From NCBI GenBank assembly GCA_031254915.1, contig JAIRTL010000047.1:1-64000 (forward strand): DNA of 64,000 nt, written 5' to 3'. Position 1 is the first letter of the stretch, and the number at the start of each line of letters is the position of its first letter. The notes under the pieces were generated by a model that did no database searches, was not told where the DNA came from, and worked only from the letters and a program-made list of their open reading frames with translations. This DNA is from Planctomycetota bacterium (GTDB taxonomy: Bacteria; Planctomycetota; SZUA-567). Made by a program: the position numbers and the translations under genes. This document shows, in pieces, positions 32,750 to 34,208 of the stretch.

Positions 32750-32781
32750 GTTCCTGGCGCATAATGCATTTGCGACAGCGA

Positions 32782-32811
32782 GGCGGAGCCGGCGACGGCT
32801 CCGCCTTTTTT
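32782..32811 (+). terminator. Rho-independent terminator of the isomerase gene
   Basis: GGCGGAGCC, loop GGCGAC, GGCTCCGCC, then six T. A perfect 9-bp GC stem with a T-run, 32 bases after the stop codon. Confidence 0.93.
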
Positions 32812-32814
32812 ACG

Positions 32815-32984
32815 GTGCGCCCGGCAGGGCGCACCCGCTTGGGGTGGGAGTCCCCAACGGGCCCCGATGACGGGGGCCGTTGGCCGGACAGCAAGGGTGC
32901 CCGTCGCGAGACGGAACCGTACGTACGGTGGCGTAAGGGAACGGAAGGCGGGCTCATTATGAGCCTGCCCTCCTCCTACTCGAT
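32815..32984 (+). mobile_element. Internally deleted group II intron remnant (5' domain I joined to 3' domain V/VI)
   Basis: Begins GTGCGCCCGGCAGGGCGCAC, the GUGCG 5' end with its first hairpin. GGGGTGGGAGTCCCC and AGCAAGGGTGCCCGTCGCGA resemble domain I text of bacterial introns. Then CGTACGTACGGTG resembles the 3' half of domain V, GGCGGGCTCATTATGAGCC is a domain VI-like hairpin, and CCTACTCGAT carries the branch-A context and an AY end. At 170 bp it lacks the reverse transcriptase gene and most of the ribozyme. It starts three bases after the T-run of a terminator, the habit of class C introns. The identification is by recalled motifs and needs a covariance search. Confidence 0.55.
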
Positions 32985-33052: not shown

Positions 33053-34090
33053 TCACGGCCGCTCGAACAGTTCGAGGACGGCGTCCGCGACTTTCTCCAC
33101 CGTCAGCGCCAGCATTCCCGACTGGTCGAGGCGGCGGCGTTCGCGGGTGGAGCGCGGTATTGCCAGGCGTTCGTACACGGCGGCGCCGCGCGGTCCGTAG
33201 GGCCCAAGGCGGCGCGGATCCGTGACCGCGAACAAGCCGAGCGTCCGGCAGCCGACGCCGGCGGCGGCGTGCATCGGAAAGGAATCGCAGCCGACGAACA
33301 GCCGCGCTCTCCGCGCCAATTCCGCGACTCCGGGGATGGAGACTTCCGGCGCGGGACAAAGATCGCCCGGTGGTCGGGCGGCGACGAGTTCCGCGACCGC
33401 GCCCCGTTCCTGCGGCCCGTGTCCGAGGACGAGCGCGGGCCAGCCGGTCTTCGCGCGCAGGATCGCCGCCAGTTCGCCGAAGCGGTCCAGCGGCCAGCGC
33501 TTGGCGGCGAAGCTGCCCCATGGACCCATGAGGATGAAGCCGCCGTCGAGTTGGTGCGTCGTGATATGCGCTTCAATAGCGCTTTTTTCCCCGGGAGGGC
33601 AGGGAGGAAATATGAACCCGGCTTCGCCGGGGGCGCGGGCGTCCATGCCGGCGAGGAGCGACAGCACCTTGTCGACGGCATGCACGCCTTGCGGCCGCAC
33701 CAGGCGATTGTCGAGGAAGTGGGCGAGTTCGCGCGATTCGCCCTTTTCGAACCCTATCCGGACCGGCGCGCCGGAAAGGCGGGCGACGATGGCGCTTTTC
33801 GCCAGGCCCTGGACGTCGAAGGCGATGTCGAAGCGCTCCCGGACGAGCGCGCGGCGGAGTTTTTTCACCTCTGTCCACGATTTCAACCAGCCCCGGGGCA
33901 GGGCGTGATGCCAGTCGACGAGGGGATTGCCGACCACCACCGGGGCGGACGGTTTTTCCACCACCCAGCCGAGGCGGCAGTCCGGGAAAAGCCGCTTCAC
34001 CGCCGCCGCCAGCGGCAACGCGTGAATGGTGTCGCCTATGGCGGAAAGGCGGGCGATGAGGATGCGTTTTCCTTCCCGGTCCGAGGTCAT
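33053..34090 (-). CDS. Glycosyltransferase family 9 (heptosyltransferase-like)
   Basis: 345 residues. ILIARLSAIGDTIHALPLAAAV is the WaaC/WaaF N-terminus; FDIAFDVQGLAKSAIVARLSGA, ILMGPWGSFAAKRWPLDRF and LFVGCDSFPMHAAAGVG are the further GT9 blocks. These enzymes add heptose from ADP-heptose to the LPS core on the cytoplasmic face. GGAGGG supports ATG 34090; the frame continues 20 codons upstream with low-complexity text. The other LPS genes of the window lie 13 kb away. Confidence 0.88.
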   Translation of the reverse strand: MTSDREGKRILIARLSAIGDTIHALPLAAAVKRLFPDCRLGWVVEKPSAPVVVGNPLVDWHHALPRGWLKSWTEVKKLRRALVRERFDIAFDVQGLAKSAIVARLSGAPVRIGFEKGESRELAHFLDNRLVRPQGVHAVDKVLSLLAGMDARAPGEAGFIFPPCPPGEKSAIEAHITTHQLDGGFILMGPWGSFAAKRWPLDRFGELAAILRAKTGWPALVLGHGPQERGAVAELVAARPPGDLCPAPEVSIPGVAELARRARLFVGCDSFPMHAAAGVGCRTLGLFAVTDPRRLGPYGPRGAAVYERLAIPRSTRERRRLDQSGMLALTVEKVADAVLELFERP

Positions 34091-34208
34091 GGACGAACCC
34101 TCCGAAGAGGAAGAAATGTCCGGCGCATTGATGGAAACGAAAATAACCAAGGCGACACCGGTATTGCTTCCTTTTTACGCACTGGGCGCAACGGGGCGCG
34201 CCACGCCG

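Follow-up and report, generated by a model that had tools for sequence, protein, structure and literature searches.

What is the short stretch of DNA that follows the terminator of a fucose-isomerase-like gene in a planctomycete genome, and what could have left it there? The locus lies in a 64,000-nucleotide (64-kb) stretch of contig JAIRTL010000047.1 (Planctomycetota bacterium, assembly GCA_031254915.1), the whole of which is referred to here as the window. A preliminary description had read the stretch as the remnant of a deleted group II intron, in a position that is habitual for class C. We put the probability that it is an internally deleted class C intron relic, stemming from an insertion behind the terminator, at about 0.93.

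Boundaries of the element and homology of its two ends

The element sits between two convergent genes, which encode a fucose-isomerase-like protein and a family 9 glycosyltransferase (Table 1). The fucose-isomerase-like protein has a homologue with 86% identity at another locus (L025), and its match to the Pfam domain Fucose_iso_C is below the cut-off. The hairpin behind this gene (fold -26.4 kcal/mol, z -5.42) was not listed by a simple terminator scan, probably because a G-T closing pair consumes part of the T-run. It is the terminator of the gene and the insertion target of the intron. Only the three bases ACG separate the end of the T-run (32811) from the start of the element (32815), the spacing that had been described from the letters.

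Table 1. Coordinates of the element, its parts and its neighbours in the window, and of short relics in a distant planctomycete genome (G149).
Feature	Position	Strand	Basis
Internally deleted group IIC (class C) intron, 170 bp	32815..32984	+	Both ends: models built without the window; blastn to own-genome copies
Retained 5′ end, ~102 nt, boundary motif and start of domain I	32815..32916	+	blastn to C109 copies, alignment, R1 90.1 bits
Deletion joint ACGGAA	32911..32916	+	Alignments of both partners, coordinates
Partial domain V, tip and 3′ strand, CCGTACGTACGGTGG	32911..32931	+	Alignment with G028 and C109_54k (domain V complete in both)
Domain VI stem-loop, 10-bp stem	32947..32969	+	R2 60.4 bits, fold, alignment
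3′ boundary CCTACTCGAT	32975..32984	+	Pattern match, coordinates, consensus in PMC4028801
L-fucose isomerase-like host gene, 587 aa	30986..32749	+	Pfam Fucose_iso_N1/N2 above cut-off
Intrinsic terminator	32780..32811	+	12-bp stem 32780-32791 / 32796-32807, loop GCGA, T-run 32806-32811
Glycosyltransferase family 9 gene, convergent, downstream	33053..34150	-	Pfam PF01075; stop at 33053
G149 class C relics (L191, L219, L220)	C1:3733647-3733818, 3451783-3451875, 107829-107898		Each directly behind a hairpin

The 5′ boundary GTGCGCCCGGCAGGG (32815-32829) corresponds to the class C consensus GUNYGCCNRGCAUGG with one mismatch, and the 3′ boundary is an exact match to the consensus CCUACYCGAU, both as given in PMC4028801. 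Each pattern occurs once in the 64-kb window, where chance means of 0.07 for the 5′ pattern (with the differing position left open) and 0.19 for the 3′ pattern would be expected.

The genome to which the window belongs (G000; 2.75 Mb in 137 contigs, 87% complete) contains four further loci that match the remnant by blastn, two on contig C109 and one each on C32 and C15. The C109 copies (C109_18k and C109_54k) share 83% and 82% identity with the first ~103 nt of the remnant and match its 3′ end separately, and those on C32 and C15 match as 5′ ends only. Across 60 genomes, including this one, the remnant found matches in four. Two covariance models were built from copies other than the window's and run over the whole window: R1, which represents the first ~102 nt and is based on seven copies, and R2, which represents the last ~60 nt and is based on four. 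The best R1 match was at 32815-32915 (90.1 bits, E 2.2e-17; next match 19.3 bits) and the best R2 match at 32923-32984 (60.4 bits, E 2.6e-11; next match 14.5 bits), with E-values that are approximate by the tool's own statement. Both ends are therefore real and directly joined, and the group II intron call of the preliminary description holds for each of them. The two ends were aligned separately with the full-length intron, because MAFFT scattered the 3′ part when given the whole remnant. The 3′ text that had been called domain V/VI-like contains domain VI and, of domain V, the tip and the 3′ half; the 5′ half of domain V, which that wording implied, is absent. One pair of the domain VI stem differs on both sides between the window copy and C109_18k (C-G versus T-A).

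Chance resemblance in GC-rich intergenic DNA would draw on the fact that short 5′ motifs recur: near-matches to the boundary pattern number 38 in this genome, compared with 15 for the reversed pattern. Five of the 38 are the known copies, all of which have 6 T in the last 10 upstream bases; the other 33, which we read as chance, have at most 4, and some hairpin precedes 8 of them. We rejected this explanation, to which we assign a negligible probability, on the E-values at the two ends, their right order and their direct joining.

The stretch 32813-32984 also folds very stably (-105.5 kcal/mol, z -5.9), as would a structured RNA with a role for the host (a backup terminator or an element of the 3′ untranslated region, for example) whose likeness to an intron is superficial. 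Some of the predicted pairs, however, belong to hairpins of the intron itself, and the element has the sequence of a class C intron and the boundaries of one at both ends. The domain VI hairpin of the element is not followed by a T-run, and no orthologous copy was found at this locus in the relatives examined, which together make a host RNA very improbable.

The deletion joint and the missing interior

A full-length relative of 1959 bp is present in another genome (G028:C111:244-2202), with a hairpin and T-run directly in front of it. It comprises the 5′ boundary, matches to RF02001, RF01998 and RF00029, and the 3′ boundary CCTACTCGAT, and its reading frame of 422 aa contains RVT_1 and GIIM domains. 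A second full-length class C intron, of 1881 bp, was found in G316. The preliminary description had proposed a search for full-length relatives in the window's own genome; the four copies there are related, and none is full-length.

Comparison with these relatives locates the joint. The 5′ part reads ..GAGGCGGAATCTGAAGG.. in the C109 copies and GAGATGGAATC.. in G028, the complete domain V of C109_54k and G028 reads ..GAACCGCCGTATACGGAACCGTACGTACGGTGG.., and the window reads ..GAGACGGAACCGTACGTACGGTGG.. across the joint. A repeat of 5-6 nt (CGGAA/ACGGAA) occurs both in domain I (..GAGRCGGAATC..) and in the domain V tip (..GTATACGGAACCG..), and a single internal deletion at ACGGAA can explain the joined ends, whose comparison the preliminary description had proposed. 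The deletion begins at nt ~102, ends at the tip of domain V and includes the 5′ strand of that domain; relative to G028 and G316, about 1.7-1.8 kb are missing. The same joint was not found by blastn in another copy of this genome.

Class C introns are among the group II introns with a CGC catalytic triad. The parts lost here are most of domain I, domains II-IV, the gene for the intron-encoded protein (IEP) and, with the domain V 5′ strand, the presumed triad; CGC is the catalytic triad of some group II introns according to PMC4424553. About nine tenths of the element are gone and both ends survive. The remnant was correctly described as 170 bp long and as lacking the reverse transcriptase (RT), since 170 bp are insufficient for an IEP of about 420 aa, as in G028.

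The Rfam group II models gave no match in the window at gathering or relaxed thresholds. A lack of matches at both ends had been named beforehand as grounds for abandoning the intron call, and this is literally what the search returned; it is misleading here, since these models cover the deleted interior. In G028 the RF02001 match begins 86 nt into the intron and RF00029 spans domains V and VI, so the models are silent on the window because the corresponding regions are deleted or halved. Unlike the window copy, in which domain I is deleted after nt ~102, both C109 copies match RF02001 (56.7 and 54.9 bits) and retain more of domain I. Nine weak matches in the window to other Rfam models (Xoo2, CrfA and others) fell below their gathering scores and are attributed to fortuitous resemblance of the terminator and the hairpins to these models.

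The RT of the full-length G028 intron has a peculiarity of its own. The usual active-site motif of RTs is YADD, and at this position (L105:1505-1545, G028:C111) the G028 protein reads YAGDSPTVVGGN. The DNA of the motif contains an 18-nt inverted repeat with 7-nt arms and a 4-nt loop, and the frame is kept. This repeat could be either a natural active-site insert or an assembly oddity.

Position behind terminators

Class C introns insert at terminators according to PMC4424553 and PMC4028801, and terminators and intron fragments are treated in PMC3522654. The preliminary description had counted the position behind a terminator in favour of its call, and our counts agree: a hairpin lies upstream of 26 of the 32 5′ ends located by R1, as against 212 of 1195 positions drawn at random from the loci concerned. 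To count, a hairpin had to have 6 or more stem pairs and to end no further than 14 nt upstream of the intron, and an intron end was included when 50 nt of upstream sequence were available. The 32 ends derive from 36 R1 matches at E up to 0.01 in 56 chosen loci, after removal of three duplicates and one end with too little upstream sequence. Six of them have no hairpin (L003, L155, L004, L198, L021 and L179); the R1 match begins within the intron at L155, L162 and L198, and these unfair tests are nevertheless counted in the 32. For a set of 25 ends picked by eye, which includes two shorter G149 copies and leaves out some other matched ends, the values were 21/25 and 139/943 control positions. 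Two of the five own-genome copies (C109_18k and C32) fail the hairpin rule.

We looked for an empty site through the homologues of both neighbours. No locus had both within its 1.5-2 kb flanks among those tested, namely three of 80 loci for fucI (L025-L027), the first four of the 80 being also inspected by eye, and 10 glycosyltransferase loci from 15 genomes of the family; the closest loci examined, L025 for fucI and L209 (genome G001) for the glycosyltransferase, each had one neighbour without the other. The case for an insertion event therefore draws on the family-wide location of these introns.

Two other loci showed features of the same kind. Far upstream of fucI at L025 (200-255), a hairpin and T-run are followed by ~25 bases that resemble a strongly eroded class C 5′ end, a weak candidate (blastn E 0.005) that R1 did not report. 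On the minus strand of L107 (~1125-1200; G001:C89), the upstream neighbour of an intron 5′ stub ends in CTCGATTCGAT, like the 3′ end of another intron, and a tandem insertion is possible there.

We propose that a full-length class C intron would have retrotransposed into the interval between the convergent genes, directly after the terminator that ends the fucose-isomerase-like gene. Later, or during insertion, ~1.7-1.8 kb would have been lost between the two occurrences of ACGGAA, one in domain I and the other at the domain V tip, leaving a remnant with both boundaries, no IEP and no complete domain V. With these parts gone, neither splicing nor mobility, including retrohoming, is to be expected from the sequence, and the element may well be without function. 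Its location past a strong terminator implies that it is probably little transcribed and that loss of splicing would have been costless.

Short relics and the timing of the deletion

The family is in an eroded state in this genome. Besides the window copy there are four decayed copies. In C109_54k (341 bp) domain V survives but most of the IEP gene is gone. C109_18k (319 bp) is missing part of domain V and still contains a degenerate stretch of RT sequence with two stops, and C15 and C32 are 5′ stubs. Where the two C109 copies agree, the 5′ part of the window copy differs from them at nine sites, seven of which are A/T to G/C differences. No RVT_1 domain was matched in the assembled genome, a tblastn search with the G028 IEP returned only short pieces on C23 and C109, and no full-length copy is present in the assembly, which is 87% complete in 137 contigs; the parent intron could lie in an assembly gap. 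As for other group II introns of this genome (L114-L120), RF00029 matched above the cut-off on C8, C60 and C111 and below it on C92, C109, C66 and C23, the last of which carries an RT fragment. No more than ~550 bases separate the matches on C8, C60 and C111 from the end of a contig, so that gaps in the assembly may hide intact introns.

Short elements with two recognisable ends also occur in G149, a distant one-contig planctomycete genome, where they measure 172, 93 and 70 bp. R1 scored the 172-bp copy at 67 bits and the 93-bp copy weakly at 15.3 bits (E 0.073), and did not report the 70-bp copy; the respective R2 scores were 19.6 bits, 16.0 bits and nothing. We assigned the 93- and 70-bp copies from their blastn matches with the 172-bp copy (E 3.2e-7 and 1.3e-5, each spanning ~50 nt), their end letters and the hairpins in front of them.

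Domain V contains the 3′ breakpoints of the window copy, C109_18k, G001:C201 and the 93-bp G149 copy. Elsewhere they are just upstream of domain V (172-bp G149 copy), in domain VI (70-bp G149 copy) or at the end of the IEP gene (C109_54k). Breakpoints in domain V could reflect deletion prompted by its palindrome or an RT jump during insertion, and detection bias can also explain the pattern, as all copies were found by their ends.

Class C RTs may be capable of template switching. The deletion might have arisen at birth, the IEP copying the RNA from its 3′ end by target-primed reverse transcription, stalling at the domain V hairpin and jumping via ACGGAA to the 5′ part. The copy would then have been short from the moment of insertion, and its two ends exact. 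This is a variant of the explanation we prefer and differs from it only in the timing and mode of the deletion. Both boundaries are recognisable in the window copy, the two C109 copies and the three G149 copies, and several 3′ breakpoints are in or near domain V, as such a jump would leave them. Against this, one-ended relics outnumber two-ended ones in the two genomes of this genus (five, namely C15, C32, G001:C89, C199 and C201, versus three), as later random deletion predicts. The queries were themselves intron ends, which favours breakpoints near the ends, and C109_18k requires two deletions. We regard a deletion at birth as rather unlikely. The broader proposal that class C introns regularly yield very short two-ended copies by an RT jump at the domain V hairpin, with the window relic and the 70-172 bp elements of G149 as abortive insertions, is more doubtful still. 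A literature search for template switching with internal deletion in group II introns found nothing on the subject.

Several short copies without an IEP in one genome, and the very short two-ended copies of G149, might instead suggest a non-autonomous family of mini-introns, similar to MITEs, moved in trans by the IEP of another copy. No two of the copies compared share a deletion, however, and splicing and target choice depend on parts that are absent from the window copy, namely the 5′ strand of domain V and most of domain I. In 392 planctomycete genomes, strict patterns running from one end of the element to the other (145-205 bp and 65-125 bp) revealed no repeated mini-family. Each pattern, tolerating no mismatch in the specified letters and so missing the diverged 172- and 70-bp G149 copies, matched in four of the 392, with one real relic (the window copy for the longer range, the 93-bp G149 copy for the shorter) and three other matches. 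None of these six others was scored by R1 at E up to 1; one gave an R2 match of 17.1 bits on the opposite strand (E 0.042), which we read as chance. A control with reversed patterns yielded one match in one search and none was seen in the other. We consider a mini-intron family highly unlikely.

One element elsewhere is a candidate for a true ORF-less intron, a 623-bp class C intron in G295 (L184:222-844; G295:C1:2331421-2332043) with domain V, no insert of IEP size, and a hairpin and T-run in front. By eye, a tRNA 3′ end can also be seen there.

An internally deleted relic, as we prefer to read the window copy, can be set beside known systems. Like class C introns behind terminators, it has the boundary consensus at both ends, the domain VI hairpin and a location behind an intrinsic terminator, and both ends are homologous to a full-length class C intron whose interior is deleted in the window. 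Unlike them, it has no intron-encoded RT/maturase, no complete domain V and no complete domain I with EBS1/EBS3, most of domain I being gone, and activity is not expected. It shares the absence of an IEP with ORF-less group II introns, but these keep the ribozyme, which is not preserved in the window copy. According to PMC4424553 and PMC4028801, the majority of group II introns in bacteria are truncated, fragmented or inactivated. The element is one more truncated relic of this kind, in a genome with other eroded copies. It does not qualify as a functional class C intron, given that the IEP, domain V and most of domain I are incomplete or missing. It differs from other truncated bacterial group II introns in keeping both ends with so much of the interior lost.

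Our literature search for group IIC introns in planctomycetes, within a limited library, found nothing. The element shows how class C introns decay in these bacteria: in relics of 70-340 bp the 5′ end is often still in place next to the terminator, and their boundaries hence make them recognisable, while Rfam and IEP searches can miss them, as happened here. One possible reason for the retention of 5′ ends is that longer deletions would remove the host terminator. If the two-ended short copies were born short, they would provide a testable statement on how these retroelements fail. In the reading that we favour, an intron that lands behind a terminator harms nothing, and the element is an ordinary genomic fossil.
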